From the IMG/VR virus record IMGVR_UViG_3300029893_000059, positions 1 to 27,448 of that record: DNA of 27,448 nt. One strand, 5' to 3'. The first letter of the stretch is position 1; the number at the start of each line of letters is the position of its first letter. The notes beneath the pieces were generated by a model. It made no database searches. It was not told the origin of the DNA and was given only the letters and a program-made list of their open reading frames with translations. This stretch comes from a virus. Shown in pieces: positions 1 to 27,448 of the stretch. The position numbers and the translations under genes were made by a program.

Positions 1-380
1 TGGAAGTTGGTCATGGTTCTGAGGGCTTCATCCCTGATGTTCTGAGCGGCGTTCAGATCTCTGTCATGGGTCTGGCCGCAGTGCGGGCAGGACCACTCGC
101 GCTCGGATAGCTTGAGTTTACGGTCCAGGCGCTGCTTGGTATGGTTGCAGATATGGAGTCGCTTATATCCACGCCCTGAAGGACGTGGTTTTACGCTCAT
201 TGTGATAACTCTCAGGTGCAATACATTCGCCAAATACTTCTCCATTGCTCTCTGGCTGATCAATTCCAGAAAGCAACAGGCAAGTATTTCACTCACTTCC
301 TGTAGTGTCATCCAGGCGATCTTCACAAAGGCCGAATTAACACGATTCGTTGTGGTCTTAACATAGAATACCACACCTTT
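1..380 (-). pseudogene. TnpB/OrfB C-terminal remnant, runs off left edge
   Basis: The minus strand is open from about 380 to the window edge. Its last third reads as the end of an IS200/IS605 TnpB nuclease: a zinc-knuckle half ([10 protein letters not shown]) followed directly by [11 protein letters not shown], the RuvC-III block with its catalytic aspartate. The first zinc knuckle, normally CxxCG, appears only as ICNHTKQ, as if one CG-containing segment had been deleted. Residues upstream ([18 protein letters not shown]) only loosely recall the TnpB bridge region, and a TAA at 381-383 ends the frame, so the RuvC-I and RuvC-II parts are missing. A GTG at 374 could start translation but has no convincing ribosome site. 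The frame continues at 27448 if the window is circular. I infer a decayed, probably inactive transposon nuclease; a domesticated short protein is the alternative. Confidence 0.72.
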
Positions 381-788
381 TTATAGGGTTCGACGATTGC
401 CTTTTCTAGTAAAAGCAGGGGTCGCCTATCTCACATAAAATCAGCCGAAGCTGTCGTCAACTATGAGAAGATCAACGATACTTTAATCAAGGTAGTATAA
501 CCACCTCATTAGAGGTTACTTGTTTCCTCTAGCTCACTTTATATAACTCTATAAGTGTTTGTCTTTTGCCAAGATAACAAAAGCTACAGTTCCTTATAGC
601 TGAGCAGGTTTAGACTTAACTTAAGTCTCTCATATTACCTACCGGTTAGTTGGACCGGATTATGTCTACATGAGACATGCGGTAAAGATAACTATTGCTA
701 GTTGTCTCACTTAATATATATGTGATCATATTTTTTTCAGATAAGGTCTCCGATGTCATTCATGTCGTATGTATATATACGAAATCTC
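381..788. other. Non-coding stretch between TnpB remnant and polymerase gene
   Basis: I see no credible gene here. It is AT-rich and holds several short inverted repeats: TAGAGG/CCTCTA near 513-531, AGACTTAA/TTAAGTCT at 612-628 with a one-base loop, CCGGT/ACCGG near 643-658 and TGTCT/AGACA near 663-677. One copy of the dispersed repeat lies at 705-743. The lost part of the TnpB element may once have occupied this place. No tRNA cloverleaf could be drawn. Confidence 0.5.
705..743 (-). repeat. Dispersed repeat copy A (promoter-like)
   Basis: This 39-bp stretch matches 13276-13314 at about 31 positions without gaps. The shared core on the plus strand is TATATATGTGA followed by YCAT and, after a spacer, TCAGATA. 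On the minus strand the core reads CACATATATATTAAG, close to the TATATTAC box described for phiKZ early promoters, so leftward promoter activity is an inference. It would fire towards the TnpB remnant. Confidence 0.5.
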
Positions 789-2909
789 TCATGTATAATT
801 AGATACCAAACTACCAGATTTAACAAAGAATCCAAGTGACTCAAGAATGATGCGATATACCAATGTAAGGTCTATGGCTATTTTCTCAATATCCATGATG
901 GATCTGATTTCCTGAGGAACACCATGTGATTGAACATACTCGGATGGTAGGTATATGGTATTCAGATCATTCTTTTTCTTTCTTACTAACCACTCAACCA
1001 TGGCTTCTCTCATCTTTACATTAGGAAGAGAATCCACCCATTCTTTCAGAACTGTTCTGTTCCTGAGTTTGGTTGGTATGATGAGAGTTCCAAATGGTGG
1101 TGGGTTAATAGGACCATATGCATGTTGATATACTTCTAACCAGAGTTTGTAGTGCTGATATGGTGATTCGTCTTCTGGTAGTGAGTATGCGCTAGCATCT
1201 TTGATCTTGGATTGTTTTAGGTATTTCGACTCACCAGACCTAAGCGATTCCATGACACTGCGCTCAATGTCTTGAACTCGCTTGATATATTTCAGTAACT
1301 CTAGCGGTTGGTTCTGACTTACTGTTGTAAGTATCTCAGTAATCATCGCATGAGCTCCTTTGATTAAGTCAGGAGGAGCTGCTGAGTTCTTGAGATGAAC
1401 ACCTTTGATCTCAAGACTGGGATTAGCAAAGACGTTACCTTCTTGCACCACAGTCCATGCTGCATAGTGTTTAGCAACGTTAGTTGGCATGTGAACTGTC
1501 CAGAGAAACTCATTCTTCATAGCTAGATCATGAAGCATTTCTCTTGGAACATTGATGTTAGCTGAAAGAATAGCTAATAGATGAGATACTGCTTGTGTTG
1601 CTATGAAAGCCACAGCACCACAGACGGCAAAGGTTTCTTCACTGAAATTGATCTTACCAAAATACCATAACATCCAGTCATCGGTAGAGAAACAGGTAGA
1701 ATCCGTATCGGATAATACCACCGACCTACGCATCATGGAACGGATGAACGCATGACTGGCTGGAACCATCTTGGTTAGGAAAAACGCTTTGATGAATAAG
1801 TCATAGTCCTTGAGAACTTGTGCTATGTTCTCAGATGTAAGTACCAGCATACAGACTGTCTCATAAGGCATCTTGGCATAATCTTTACCTTTACCTCTGA
1901 GATCATTATAACCAATTTGATGAGCGTAGTTTAAGATTTGTTCATCGATGGACCAGATCTTATCTAGAGCATTTTCAACATGCCCGGTGCACTTCTTACT
2001 GAGTCTATTAATGAACTCCAACATGAAGTCATTATTAAGTACACGTATGCGATATAGGTCACCTATGTAGCAGAAGGCTGCTCTTTCTATATCGTCCATC
2101 TTTTCCACATAAGCTTGGATGCGCTCCATAGCTAGTGGGTTCTGGAAATAGAACCTAGTGGAGTATTCTATACAATCCATAACTTCCTGTACTGTAGGAA
2201 TATGGAGTTTATAATGCTCTATGGCTTGTTTGATTTCATCTCTATCTATCTCTGTGCAATAACAATTGAGATTATAGAGAACGATATCCTCGTTATAGTA
2301 ATGACGATTACCCATCACTACACGTTCATTGGAGGCGTTGCCAAAAGAACTCACAGATCTAATCGTAGAGGTAAGTGAACTATGAGCAGTTGGGTTATAA
2401 AATACCGAACCCTTACTACCAAATGCTCCAGACATACTGTTGTTATAGTTCTTCATGTTCTTCTGTTCATTGTCCTTCATGATGAACAGATCATTATTAC
2501 CGGCTGCTTTAGCTTTGAATCCTTCTTTTTTAGCTTGGCTTCTGCGTTTCTTATTACCTTCTACGAATCCAACTAGCTTAGATGGTATCTGGGTTGGGTT
2601 CTTATAGCAAGTAAAGGTTGGAGCCAGGATAAGATCTCTCTTAACCAAGGTATCTATATATCTAGATAGAGAGATATGATCAACTAATCTATCGCCATTA
2701 TCACCACGATGAAAGAACTTCACAACTGGGTTTTTGATACCAGATTGCTTACTAGTGATCACATGCCTTACGAATTCTTTACATTGGTCGATGGGATCAC
2801 CGGACATCTTACTGATATACATAGCAGCCTGTTCAAGATAATGATTGATAGGCTGTATGTCTCTTTGGTAGTATTCTTTTTCCCTAAGAAATAGCTGTTG
2901 CTCTGACAT
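789..2909 (-). CDS. Family B DNA polymerase, C-terminal part of a split enzyme
   Basis: This 706-aa protein carries polymerase motif B around residues 148-165 (KNMKNYNNSMSGAFG) and motif C at 398-404 (VLSDTDS), where the two aspartates bind the catalytic metals. A later KGVHLKNSAAP resembles the conserved KG(V/I)xxxxS thumb-side motif of B-family enzymes. Motif A and the 3'-5' exonuclease motifs are absent, so this is only the distal half of a palm domain; phiKZ-like phages are known to split their polymerase over separate genes, and the N-terminal part must lie outside the window. Start is ATG at 2909, overlapping the preceding stop by one base (TAATG), which implies translational coupling to the 85-aa gene. 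The match rests on motifs, so exact subfamily is uncertain. Confidence 0.8.
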   Translation of the reverse strand: MSEQQLFLREKEYYQRDIQPINHYLEQAAMYISKMSGDPIDQCKEFVRHVITSKQSGIKNPVVKFFHRGDNGDRLVDHISLSRYIDTLVKRDLILAPTFTCYKNPTQIPSKLVGFVEGNKKRRSQAKKEGFKAKAAGNNDLFIMKDNEQKNMKNYNNSMSGAFGSKGSVFYNPTAHSSLTSTIRSVSSFGNASNERVVMGNRHYYNEDIVLYNLNCYCTEIDRDEIKQAIEHYKLHIPTVQEVMDCIEYSTRFYFQNPLAMERIQAYVEKMDDIERAAFCYIGDLYRIRVLNNDFMLEFINRLSKKCTGHVENALDKIWSIDEQILNYAHQIGYNDLRGKGKDYAKMPYETVCMLVLTSENIAQVLKDYDLFIKAFFLTKMVPASHAFIRSMMRRSVVLSDTDSTCFSTDDWMLWYFGKINFSEETFAVCGAVAFIATQAVSHLLAILSANINVPREMLHDLAMKNEFLWTVHMPTNVAKHYAAWTVVQEGNVFANPSLEIKGVHLKNSAAPPDLIKGAHAMITEILTTVSQNQPLELLKYIKRVQDIERSVMESLRSGESKYLKQSKIKDASAYSLPEDESPYQHYKLWLEVYQHAYGPINPPPFGTLIIPTKLRNRTVLKEWVDSLPNVKMREAMVEWLVRKKKNDLNTIYLPSEYVQSHGVPQEIRSIMDIEKIAIDLTLVYRIILESLGFFVKSGSLVSNYT

Positions 2910-10484: not shown

Positions 10485-10527
10485 CCACCGCAGTGGTTGT
10501 TTTGTTTAAAACAGGAGATAGTTGGTC

Positions 10528-11445
10528 ATGGATGAAATAAGTAAAAAGAAGTTTATCCAGGAACATAAGTTTGAACGTGGGATGGCTTTGATACCTGGTA
10601 TCGAAAATATCATTGCTGTAAGTAGTGGTAAGGGCGGGGTTGGTAAGAGCACTGTAGCTGTTAATCTAGCTTTGGCTTTGAGCAAGATGGGTAAGAGAGT
10701 TGGGATATTGGATGCCGACATCTATGGCCCGTCTGTTCCTAAGATGTTGAAGCTAGATGGAGCTCATCCTACTAGTAGTGATGGTATGCGATTAGACCCT
10801 CTTGAGTCATATGGACTGCAGGTGATGTCCATGGGACTGATGGTTGATGAGACTACTAGTATGAGCTGGCGTGGTCCTATGGTCACTATGGTCCTTAAAC
10901 AATTACTAACAGAAACCAATTGGAAAGATATAGATTTTCTAGTTGTAGATATGCCTCCCGGTACTGGTGATATCCCTATCACTATGGCTAAACAAATGCC
11001 ATTGACTGGTGTGGTGTTAGTTACCACACCTCAAGATATCGCTCTGATCGATGTTCTCAAAGGTATGAAAATGTATGAGAACATGGGTGTGCCTATTTAT
11101 GGTGTTGTTGAAAACATGAGTGTTCATGTTTGTACTGACTGTGGTAAGGTTGAGCATATCTTTGGTCAAGGAGCTAGTAAACGGCTCAAAGAAGAACATG
11201 GTGTTGAACTATTGAGCTCATTACCTTTACATATAAGTATATGTGAACAGACTGATAAAGGCAACCCTACTATGGTTGCTGAACCAGATGGTGTTCATGC
11301 TCAGATGTATACGCTCATAGCCGAGCAAGTAGTGGATAAGACACCAGAAAAGGTTTTATCTCCTTTCTATCAGGATATGCTTGATAGGATGTGTGCTGGT
11401 GTTGAGGATCAGGGATGTCAGGATATGAGTTCTGATGTTAGTTAA
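10528..11445 (+). CDS. mrp: Mrp/NBP35-family P-loop ATPase (Fe-S carrier type)
   Basis: This 305-aa protein is a full-length Mrp/ApbC-type ATPase. The deviant Walker A is SSGKGGVGKST (32-42), then GILDADIYGPSVPKML (59-73), SWRGPMV (113-119), the Mrp signature VVDMPPGTGD (139-148) and IENMS-like VVENMSVHVCTDCG. The CTDC cysteines at 202 and 205, which in the family bridge an iron-sulfur cluster between two subunits, are intact. There is no N-terminal DUF59 domain. Known members hold and transfer Fe-S clusters; related ParA/MinD ATPases position DNA, but the CxxC argues for Fe-S work. ATG 10528 follows AGGAG; the TTG two codons earlier is unlikely. Its phage client is unknown. Confidence 0.93.
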   Translation: MDEISKKKFIQEHKFERGMALIPGIENIIAVSSGKGGVGKSTVAVNLALALSKMGKRVGILDADIYGPSVPKMLKLDGAHPTSSDGMRLDPLESYGLQVMSMGLMVDETTSMSWRGPMVTMVLKQLLTETNWKDIDFLVVDMPPGTGDIPITMAKQMPLTGVVLVTTPQDIALIDVLKGMKMYENMGVPIYGVVENMSVHVCTDCGKVEHIFGQGASKRLKEEHGVELLSSLPLHISICEQTDKGNPTMVAEPDGVHAQMYTLIAEQVVDKTPEKVLSPFYQDMLDRMCAGVEDQGCQDMSSDVS

Positions 11446-13088: not shown

Positions 13089-13270
13089 TTACATCTCCTT
13101 GTAGTTGATTTAATCTAACACGCTACTCGCCGTGTGTTATGGCGGCATTATTTTACTCCCGCTTGCCAGCGCTATCCGTCATCCGAGCTTTTGAAGTCCC
13201 TTAGCAAGGAATAATTCGAATCTCACCATAGCGTAAAGAACAAGATATTTCCTCCTAAACAAATCGAGCT

Positions 13271-13314
13271 GGCTATCTCAAGTAGTATATATGTGACCAT
13301 GGTTATGTCAGATA
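13271..13314 (-). repeat. Dispersed repeat copy B (promoter-like)
   Basis: These 44 bp match 24937-24980 at 39 positions without gaps: GGCTATCTCAAGTAG, then TATATAT, TGACCATGGT and TCAGATA. On the minus strand it contains TATATACTAC, like the phiKZ early TATATTAC box, and points towards the 115-aa gene about 190 bases away. The remaining leader (13089-13270) holds a TAACACG/CGTGTGTTA hairpin near 13115-13139 and no gene. Confidence 0.6.
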
Positions 13315-23705: not shown

Positions 23706-24503
23706 TTATTTATTACTAGCTATATATCTTTGCAAACCTCTTGGTGTTAATGTTTTAATCTCACCAGTTTCTTTATCTATTACATTGATATATTTTCTTT
23801 TAATTTCAGCTATTGCTTCAGCTGGATCGATTCCTTTATCTAGATATTTACGTAGTACTCTATCTTCTATCTCATGTAAAGAGGCTATTTGTGATATCTT
23901 CATCATCTTTCCTCGGTACATGTATTTTCTACCATGCATTAGTTGGGTATCTACAGCATCTTCAACACTCATGCCTTTAGATATTCTCTTAGCTATGGTA
24001 TTACTATCTAATCCAGATATAAGCGATAATTCGCTGAGAGTTTTTTGTTCACCTTTATAGGTTAAACTAAAAATCCGTTTTGGTACTTCCATTTCTATAT
24101 TTAAACCATTCTTCCATCTTGCTCTTATTGTCGATTCATTTATATTTAATAACTTCGATGCTTCGGTAGCATTCATTACTTGACCTGTACTTGGGATTGT
24201 TACCATGAAATTGCTAGATCTATTATTAGCCTGTTCTTCTTGTGTGGCCCATCTAACATTACCAGGCTCGTAGTTACCATCGTTGTTAATGCGATCGAGC
24301 GTATGTTTTGGAGATGGACGAGGACCTATATAGTCGTAAAAAGCTTGAAAAGAATCACGCCATTCTGGATATACTGTAATACCGCGACCACCATAACGAT
24401 GGTATCTTTTATCATTCTTTCTATAACATCTTTCTTTCATAGCAGCCCAGATTTTATATTCTGGTAAATAACGCTTACCATGCCATTCTCTTTGTTTCTT
24501 CAT
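23706..24503 (-). CDS. HNH homing endonuclease with repeat DNA-binding tail
   Basis: This 265-aa protein starts at ATG 24503 with AAGGAG upstream. Residues 1-95 are a typical phage HNH nuclease: YKIWAAMKERCYRKND, YGGRGITVYPEWRDSF, then the HNH core with HTLDRINNDGNYEPGNVRWAT, whose D and N residues bind the metal. After it come four weakly repeated units of 35 to 45 residues of helix-turn-helix type (ATEASKLLNINESTIRARWK, LSELSLISGLDSNTIAKRIS, ISQIASLHEIEDRVLRKYLD), like the NUMOD modules of homing enzymes. It presumably cuts an intronless or element-free allele to spread itself, here as a free-standing gene between sheath and tube. No intron is evident around it. Confidence 0.88.
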   Translation of the reverse strand: MKKQREWHGKRYLPEYKIWAAMKERCYRKNDKRYHRYGGRGITVYPEWRDSFQAFYDYIGPRPSPKHTLDRINNDGNYEPGNVRWATQEEQANNRSSNFMVTIPSTGQVMNATEASKLLNINESTIRARWKNGLNIEMEVPKRIFSLTYKGEQKTLSELSLISGLDSNTIAKRISKGMSVEDAVDTQLMHGRKYMYRGKMMKISQIASLHEIEDRVLRKYLDKGIDPAEAIAEIKRKYINVIDKETGEIKTLTPRGLQRYIASNK

Positions 24504-24744
24504 CTTCCTGCTCCTTGTTGGTTAACAGAGCCATCTATAGCTCTCATGTACTATATATGTGATCATACCATGCTAGGATATTGAAAAGATAATTTACCAC
24601 CCATAGAGCCTTTTACAGGGCTCTATAGGAGTATTTAATCAATAGGTCGTGAGTGTAAGTAGTAATCATTCATTTCTCACACGAGCCATGGATTAAAAAC
24701 ATGGATTAATGAAATACACTGGAATTATCTACAGGAGACTGAAG
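24504..24744. promoter_or_regulatory. Divergent intergenic region with hairpins
   Basis: It holds AGAGC/GCTCT near 24526-24544, a dispersed-repeat relative at 24543-24567 and an ATAGAGCC/GGCTCTAT hairpin at 24603-24626. The dispersed-repeat core on the minus strand contains TATATAGTAC about 50 bases before the endonuclease start and may be its promoter. No gene is seen. Confidence 0.45.
24543..24567 (-). repeat. Dispersed repeat copy C (partial, promoter-like)
   Basis: TCTCATGTA, then CTATATATGTGATCAT matches the first half of copies A, B and D at about 22 of 25 positions; the TCAGATA end is not preserved. Its minus-strand TATATAGTAC faces the homing endonuclease gene. Confidence 0.45.
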
Positions 24745-24951
24745 ATGGGAAGTTTCACTGATGAAAAACTCACTTATATTGAAGATGCAGGTAGGAAAGG
24801 TAAGGGGTTATTCTCAAACCAACCATTACCAGAAGGAACTATCATAGGTATGTATGATGGGACGGCTAAGAGAATATTTGCTACAGAAGCCATGGGTATG
24901 GATAGATCTCTATGGATTGAAAAATGTATAAAGAATGGCTATCTCAAGTAG
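24745..24951 (+). CDS. Truncated SET-domain-like ORF, 68 aa
   Basis: ATG 24745 follows AGGAG; an in-frame ATG at 24709 lacks one. Residues 14-37 contain GRKGKGLFSNQPLPEGTIIG, which matches the opening of SET domains (G-x-G-[LV]-F-x(5)-[IL]-x-x-G-x-x-I), the first strand pair before the methyl-donor site. The rest of a SET domain, including the NHS/C motif and catalytic tyrosine, is absent. The last five codons (GYLK stop) lie in dispersed repeat copy D, so the gene seems to have been cut off by the repeat or a recombination there. It may be a remnant rather than an active methyltransferase; a small functional protein is possible. Confidence 0.55.
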   Translation: MGSFTDEKLTYIEDAGRKGKGLFSNQPLPEGTIIGMYDGTAKRIFATEAMGMDRSLWIEKCIKNGYLK

Positions 24952-24980
24952 TATATATCTGACCATGGTAGAATCAGATA
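24937..24980 (-). repeat. Dispersed repeat copy D
   Basis: It matches 13271-13314 at 39 of 44 positions. Differences are one base in the TATATAT(G/C)TGA part and four in the spacer before TCAGATA. It overlaps the 3' end of the SET-like ORF. Read leftward it contains TATATACTAC and points to the homing endonuclease region. Confidence 0.6.
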
Positions 24981-26213: not shown

Positions 26214-26789
26214 TCATACTTTAGGTAGTACGATGGTGCTTTCTTGATTTTGATACTTACCTTTACGATCGGCGTAGCTAACTTCACATGGTATCTTCCC
26301 TTTAAAGAAGAGAACCTGAGCGCATCCCTGGTTGGCATAGAGTTTAGCTGGCAAAGGAGATCCATTACTGAATTCGAGTGTTACATAGCCACACCATTCG
26401 CTTTCCAGCGGGCTAGCCAGGCAATTGATGCCACATCTAGCATAAGTGGATTTATTCAGCACGATCGTCTGTATATCCCTAGGTATATTGAATTTCTCAA
26501 CAGACCTACCAAGCACAAACGAATGCGGTGGGATAATGACATAATCACCAACCCTGTCTACATAACTATCATGATCAAAATCAAGAGGGTCGATGATAGT
26601 TGAAGAGATATTAGAGAAGACCTTAAACTCAGGAGCTAGTCTAATATCATAGCCATATGAACTATTACCATAGCTGATGATCTTCTTACCATCAACTTCT
26701 TTAACCTGTTGAGATACAAAAGGTGAGATCATTGGCTTATCTGTATTTTCACACAACTCCCTGATCTCGATGTCTGACAATATGCTCAC
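26214..26789 (-). CDS. dcd: dCTP deaminase (Dcd family)
   Basis: I place the start at GTG 26789, six bases after AGGAG, giving 191 aa, close to the 193 of the Escherichia coli enzyme; the longer frame to 26843 has no start site. Family landmarks are [13 protein letters not shown] near residue 42-54, [10 protein letters not shown] (the GKSSxAR loop), [13 protein letters not shown] with the catalytic glutamate, QGCAQVLFF, and the C-terminal KGKYQNQ that closes over the nucleotide. It turns dCTP into dUTP, feeding thymidylate supply. Some relatives also split dUTP to dUMP; the motifs do not settle which applies. It belongs with the phage's nucleotide metabolism and lies 78 bases downstream of the 119-aa gene. 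Confidence 0.9.
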
Positions 26790-26828
26790 GAATATCTCCT
26801 GATTTAAAGAAAATTGGCTAAAGTACCA

Positions 26829-26854
26829 CACCTGCCACCACATGTTGGCAGGTG
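26829..26854 (-). terminator. Hairpin after the 119-aa gene
   Basis: CACCTGCCA pairs with TGGCAGGTG across an eight-base loop, 13 bases past the stop at 26868. Leftward it is followed by TGTGGTACTTTAG, with few U's, so termination may be partial before the dCTP deaminase gene. Confidence 0.6.
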
Positions 26855-26867
26855 GGTGGGATTTTAA

Positions 26868-27227
26868 TTAGGCTTTCTTGTTAGCACGGTTCTTGTGCAG
26901 GAACTGGTACATCACTGCAAACCCAAACAACACAAGGCTGTTCGGAATAGTGCAGATAGGGTAACCAGAACGATTCTTCACAATCGTATCCGTATAGGCG
27001 AGATCGATGTAGACGCGAAAATGTTTTTTCACATCGCACCAGACCAACCGGAAATCTGGTACGTATTGAAGATTGTTCTCGATCAGGATGACTCTATTAT
27101 CATCCTTGCTACTGACTTCAGTACCATTCAGAGCAACCAAGCTTTTAAGTTGATTGTATACACGTGAACGAAAACGAGTAGTTTGATCTGATGGTGCTGC
27201 TGTGCTTGATAGGATTGTTACAGACAT
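26868..27227 (-). CDS. Unknown 119-aa protein with C-terminal membrane segment
   Basis: ATG 27227 follows AAGGAG by six to seven bases. The first 35 residues are polar and probably helical (TTRFRSRVYNQLKSLVAL), the middle is beta-rich (RVILIENN, FRLVWCDVKKHFRVYIDLAY), and a hydrophobic stretch near the end (NSLVLFGFAVMYQFL) is followed by KNRANKKA. That is the layout of a tail-anchored membrane protein with a positive end inside, though the segment is short. I do not recognise the family. It may act at the inner membrane, for example during lysis or host takeover, but nothing in the sequence decides this. Confidence 0.7.
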   Translation of the reverse strand: MSVTILSSTAAPSDQTTRFRSRVYNQLKSLVALNGTEVSSKDDNRVILIENNLQYVPDFRLVWCDVKKHFRVYIDLAYTDTIVKNRSGYPICTIPNSLVLFGFAVMYQFLHKNRANKKA

Positions 27228-27318: not shown

Positions 27319-27448
27319 CTACATATGCCCATTGAACTGCTTAGCTAGAAACACAGAACAACAGGACTTGTTTGACTTACTCCTCGCACTGAAGTACGAG
27401 GATTCCTGAGCCTCACGACCCAAGGGTCCCACTTCATCGAGATGCTTA
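27319..27448 (-). pseudogene. TnpB C-terminal tail, runs off right edge
   Basis: The minus strand from 27448 is open for 42 codons to a TAG at 27319-27321. It includes GPLGREAQESSYFSARSK, of the kind often found at TnpB ends where the coding sequence runs into the element's right-end hairpin. Joined to position 1 of the window the reading frame continues without a break: TMTNF, then H made of bases 2, 1 and 27448, then KHLDEVG. I therefore take it as the end of the same gene as 1-380. The 27228-27318 part before it has no gene. Confidence 0.65.
27375..27410 (-). ncRNA. IS200/IS605-type right-end hairpin, putative omega RNA scaffold end
   Basis: On the minus strand CCTCGTAC pairs with GTGCGAGG across a TTCA loop (27382-27401), with one T-G wobble that is a C-A mismatch on the other strand. 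It is followed by AGTAAGTCAAA. This is the usual right-end motif of IS605-group elements (GAATC, stem, TTCA-type loop, stem, AGTAGTCA). In active elements the RNA covering this end is the guide scaffold of TnpB, and the bases just beyond (from about 27371 downward) serve as guide. Whether it is still transcribed is unknown. Confidence 0.55.

Follow-up and report, generated by a model that had tools for sequence, protein, structure and literature searches.

The closest described systems are transposase-free derivatives of IS605-type elements. In Halanaerobium hydrogeniformans, a PATE-like IS605 derivative of approximately 271 nt consists of a left-end hairpin, the last 58 nt of tnpB, and the right end (PMC7290912). 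The PATEs of Haloquadratum walsbyi are likewise transposase-free and possess near-terminal palindromes as in IS605-type elements, and some of them derive from a deletion of the core and retain C-terminal coding remnants (PMC3119063). Here, we describe a comparable remnant, partial copies of which are located at both ends of a virus record. The stretch of DNA analyzed is the whole record of 27,448 bp, referred to as the window throughout. We are confident, short of certainty, that this piece is a linear, repeat-bounded metagenome contig of a phiKZ-like jumbo phage. The features at its two ends are the following, where G002 denotes a second contig introduced below.

1..209, minus strand: left-hand partial copy, a left end (GTTATC... 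plus hairpin) joined to the final portion of tnpB and cut at base 1; assigned by similarity to plasmid elements just upstream of a tnpB start, with the outer boundary probably near 209
169..188, minus strand: left-end hairpin CCACGTCCTTCAGGGCGTGG, read from the sequence
3..374, minus strand: open frame with a remnant of the TnpB C-terminal zinc ribbon (TNB, PF07282), RuvC-I/II parts absent; from the domain match
1..56, minus strand: 56-nt exact match to the end of G002, followed there by 120 bp absent from the window; from the alignment with G002
27372..27448, minus strand: right-hand partial copy, a right-end segment cut at 27448 with the outer end ...GTCAA; resembles the right ends of bacterial IS605-type elements
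27382..27401, minus strand: right-end hairpin CCTCGTACTTCAGTGCGAGG, then AGTAAGTCAA, read from the sequence
27420..27448, minus strand: 29 nt identical to G002, preceded there by the 120-bp segment; from the alignment with G002

The left piece contains the TNB/zinc-ribbon domain of TnpB (PF07282, E 4e-10), and the right-end hairpin reported by the first-pass annotation is present as CCTCGTACTTCAGTGCGAGG on the right. The annotation had placed the junction of the two window ends inside a TnpB gene; there is no intact gene, just its C-terminal end. The last tnpB codons directly follow the left-end hairpin, and further upstream all frames are filled with stops. On a Klebsiella plasmid, DNA similar to this hairpin sits just upstream of a tnpB start, and the hairpin is therefore probably a left end. 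The remnant is an internally deleted IS200/IS605-type element, composed of a left-end hairpin, the zinc-ribbon end of tnpB, and a right-end hairpin, and was presumably moved by TnpA acting in trans. As in PATEs, near-terminal hairpins occur at both ends (169-188 and 27382-27401), with a CTTCAG apex in both and modest z-scores against shuffles (-1.2 and -1.5). No complete transposase is carried, a tnpB remnant at most, the unseen middle amounting to 120 bp if it is like that of G002. TTAT on the left side of the remnant and TCAA on its right side may represent target or cleavage signs, which is suggestive only. Neither the window nor the half copy of G002 matched Rfam at the gathering threshold, a permissive Rfam search returned just two implausible sub-threshold matches, and phage records searched at the nucleotide level, using either the window or the remnant as query, yielded nothing useful.

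With the Halanaerobium hydrogeniformans element (PMC7290912), the remnant shares the fusion of a left-end hairpin to the last part of tnpB and a right end, the lack of tnpA, and a length of a few hundred bp. However, it keeps more of tnpB, is located in a jumbo phage, and would measure approximately 420 bp if the left half from the window and the right half from G002 make up one copy. Absence of a transposase, near-terminal palindromes and, in some members, C-terminal coding remnants are also common to the Haloquadratum walsbyi PATEs (PMC3119063), which, in contrast, reside in an archaeal host genome at high copy number and with defined boundaries, whereas the phage remnant is represented by partial copies only. 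It appears to add one modest further example to an established type of element.

Between the two partial copies, the window encodes a PhuZ tubulin, a phiKZ-type DNA polymerase, TerL, a gp29-type sheath, and a tail tube. Counterparts of the proteins encoded between polymerase and tail tube, these two included, occur in the same order at 48.5-70.5 kb of a relative, G001, a fragment of 164,582 bp from a genome of more than 164 kb, and in mostly preserved order at 0.6-28.5 kb of the complete Burkholderia phage FLC9 (LC667451.1; 321,833 bp). A phiKZ-like phage is thus indicated by its polymerase, PhuZ, gp29PR sheath, tail tube, and conserved gene order, and the search for larger relatives with the same gene order, as recommended by the first-pass annotation, places the window block collinear with both genomes. 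The genes adjoining the two partial copies or close to them are:

789..2909, minus strand: phiKZ-type DNA polymerase, adjoins the left copy; identity of 56% with G001 and 37% with FLC9
26214..26843, minus strand: dCTP deaminase-like gene close to the right copy; in neither G001 nor FLC9 beside the tail tube
26868..27227, minus strand: 119-aa protein adjoining the right copy; shares 37% identity with a G001 ORF (1.7-2.0 kb)

The deaminase-like gene and the 119-aa protein follow the tail tube in the window (26214-27227), while the corresponding positions are approximately 17 kb and 2 kb in G001 and, for the deaminase, 162 kb in FLC9. Since the counterparts lie elsewhere, this block is rearranged in the window. 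No match to the 119-aa protein was found in the phage collection. FLC9, although it shares the polymerase-to-tube block in mostly the same order, differs from the window by its remote dCTP deaminase and by TerL, whose strand is opposite relative to its neighbors. An apparent split of TerL in G001 is due to the edge of the 20-kb sequence pieces at 60,000 and was discarded.

Several further observations concern the gene content. An Mrp/NUBPL-family ATPase (window 10522-11445; PF10609, E 2e-96) is unmatched in G001 and FLC9, and its closest matches in the phage collection are less than 60% identical and belong to unrelated phages. Sheath and tail tube are separated by a 265-aa ORF (23706-24503), which has weak helix-turn-helix matches and a weak similarity of 28% to a stretch at 200 kb of FLC9. 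In G001, PhuZ is split after residue 98 by approximately 1.7 kb holding a 411-aa ORF (~53.4-56.1 kb), possibly an intron or a homing endonuclease, and the dCTP deaminase match is split by approximately 0.4 kb (~16.6-17.5 kb). The motif TATATATGTGACCATG recurs at window positions 699-743, 13270-13314, 24536-24580, and 24936-24980, always on the plus strand, and seven times in G001; it is possibly a phage promoter.

A search of IMG/VR with the peptide obtained by joining the window ends identified a single relative, located on G002 (IMGVR_UViG_3300029893_000058; 27,603 bp). With exception of its final base, the 57-nt suffix of this contig equals the 57-nt prefix of the window. Such a match would be the pattern expected of neighboring or repeat-sharing contigs, and is not proof of either; owing to this near-identical overlap, a continuation of base 1 into G002-like DNA is likelier than one into base 27448. 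Like the window, G002 carries the remnant at its end, the same base composition, and phiKZ-like genes, but it represents another genome block (104-140 kb in G001 and 55-88 kb in FLC9), has 120 bp more in its remnant copy, and possesses a different right-end hairpin. The two contigs have no genes in common except the remnant. Their tetranucleotide correlation is 0.944 (0.925-0.932 for 20-kb pieces), compared to within-genome means of 0.88 and 0.91 and to 0.65-0.79 for the window versus G001. On the basis of composition and gene content, not of a shared sample, both contigs probably originate from one phage or from two very close ones. According to FLC9 synteny, the left end of the window is not the expected neighbor of G002. 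Compared with the right copy in the window, G002 has another right-end hairpin and other DNA past its GTCAA; hence, at least two right ends exist. The opposite end of G002 begins in an internally repeated coding region (1-314), so that G002, too, ends in repeats.

The minus-strand frame that exits at base 1 stays open when bases 1 and 27448 are joined, and neither a terminal overlap nor an inverted terminal repeat was found between the window ends. The open frame and the lack of duplicated end bases had been reported by the first-pass annotation, and both were reproduced by joining the ends. Yet out of three possible minus-strand frames, two run on from base 27448 without a stop, for 42 and 33 codons, and the third stops at once; such continuity is therefore close to chance, its probability being approximately 2/3. 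In the G002 copy, 56 of 56 nt are identical up to window base 1, followed by 120 bp without counterpart in the window; G002 then resumes at window base 27448 with 29 exactly matching nt (46/51 overall). Its tnpB frame ends with FHSEPGVTVLATLH and a stop inside these 120 bp. The claim that the frame "continues exactly" at base 27448 is contradicted by this segment, which separates the window-end nucleotides in G002 and contains stops in the tnpB frame. Missing residues at the join had been named in advance as evidence against a circle, and relative to the only other copy found the join does lack sequence. Relative to this copy, the ends thus do not join without a gap, as those of a circular replicon should, and the parsimonious reading would be that a stretch is missing from the window at this point. 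Among IMG/VR contigs, exact 24-mers of both halves match G002 only, so the seamless join occurs in no further contig of that collection.

Whether the additional segment is native was further assessed by comparison with relatives. In most tnpB relatives, a TGGAG-type motif lies after the zinc ribbon and before the right end; G002 contains it within the 120 bp as CATGGAGAG, whereas it is missing from the joined window, which favors the segment as native. RNA folding does not decide this question, since both the G002 copy (z ~ -1.05) and the joined window (z ~ -1.29) fold no better than shuffles. The spacing between the NAA motif and the right-end hairpin ranges from 46 to approximately 150 nt among relatives, and in some bacterial ones the hairpin lies merely 46-53 nt past the motif; due to this variation, length alone is not decisive either, and a short form, in which the window copies are devoid of the segment, is possible. 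Among 369 class-mates of a Chromatiales genome, tnpB relatives were found, but none had a tail aligning past the join.

Under the reading as a repeat-bounded contig, each end of the window would break off within a partial copy of one short IS200/IS605-type remnant, because copies that are nearly alike would cause a short-read assembler to lose the path inside them. The left end carries a 5' half and the right end a 3' half of equal orientation; under this reading, the halves belong to two different copies, and joining the ends mimics one element minus 120 bp. We infer that the assembly broke at the repeat.

A seamless join could also have emerged if the assembler collapsed two near-identical direct copies devoid of the 120 bp, the contig ends being an indel bubble against a G002-type copy. 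Zero overlap, zero gap, and the open frame would agree with such a closed path, as would the short right ends of some bacteria, and the coincidence of both contig ends with the boundaries of the 120-bp difference is explicable by a graph branch; however, this coincidence is automatic if the 120 bp are simply an assembly gap. Moreover, closed paths from a k-mer assembler usually retain an overlap between their ends, where none is present, and the joined sequence occurs in no other IMG/VR contig, so that we regard a collapsed path as improbable. A real join, i.e., a closed 27-kb circle between two direct miniature IS605 copies in a jumbo phage, with the 120 bp as an indel specific to the G002 copy, is less probable again, and a closed circle is disfavored altogether. 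If a circular derivative had been generated by deletion or excision, through recombination between two direct remnant copies, the equally oriented half copies at the window ends would be accounted for, but the join departs by 120 bp from the one other copy found, neither right-end half can stand in for the other, and there is no sign of an abundant circle; this origin is very unlikely. A circle produced by assembly, deletion, or excision, as envisaged by the first-pass annotation, is thus not supported, given the stretch missing relative to G002.

The annotation had also considered a true small replicon built from jumbo-phage genes, for which the joint presence of polymerase, terminase, and tail genes might speak. 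Yet their order is a plain subset, one collinear block, of the genomes of more than 164 kb and of 321,833 bp, there are no terminal repeats, and no capsid or RNA-polymerase genes were detected among the window protein families searched, although both are present in G001. A complete replicon of this size is therefore extremely unlikely. Scans with the capsid and RNA-polymerase proteins of G001 revealed no further contigs of the window's phage. As a replicon, the 27,448-bp piece is ordinary and looks like a fragment of a much larger jumbo-phage genome. Of the initial alternative, circle or repeat-bounded piece, the latter part holds, as a single IS605-type remnant supplies the partial copies at both window ends and also the end of G002, while the inexact seam speaks against the circle.

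These findings give reason for caution, as a repeat-bounded fragment, too, can have ends that seemingly connect in frame within a transposon gene; here, a single related contig sufficed to expose the seam as inexact. A 27-kb circle that truly existed and carried terminase and tail genes would matter much more, and the evidence opposes it. What is known about the mobile elements of nucleus-forming-type phages gains a small addition from this PATE-like IS605 remnant, carried by a phiKZ-like jumbo phage.
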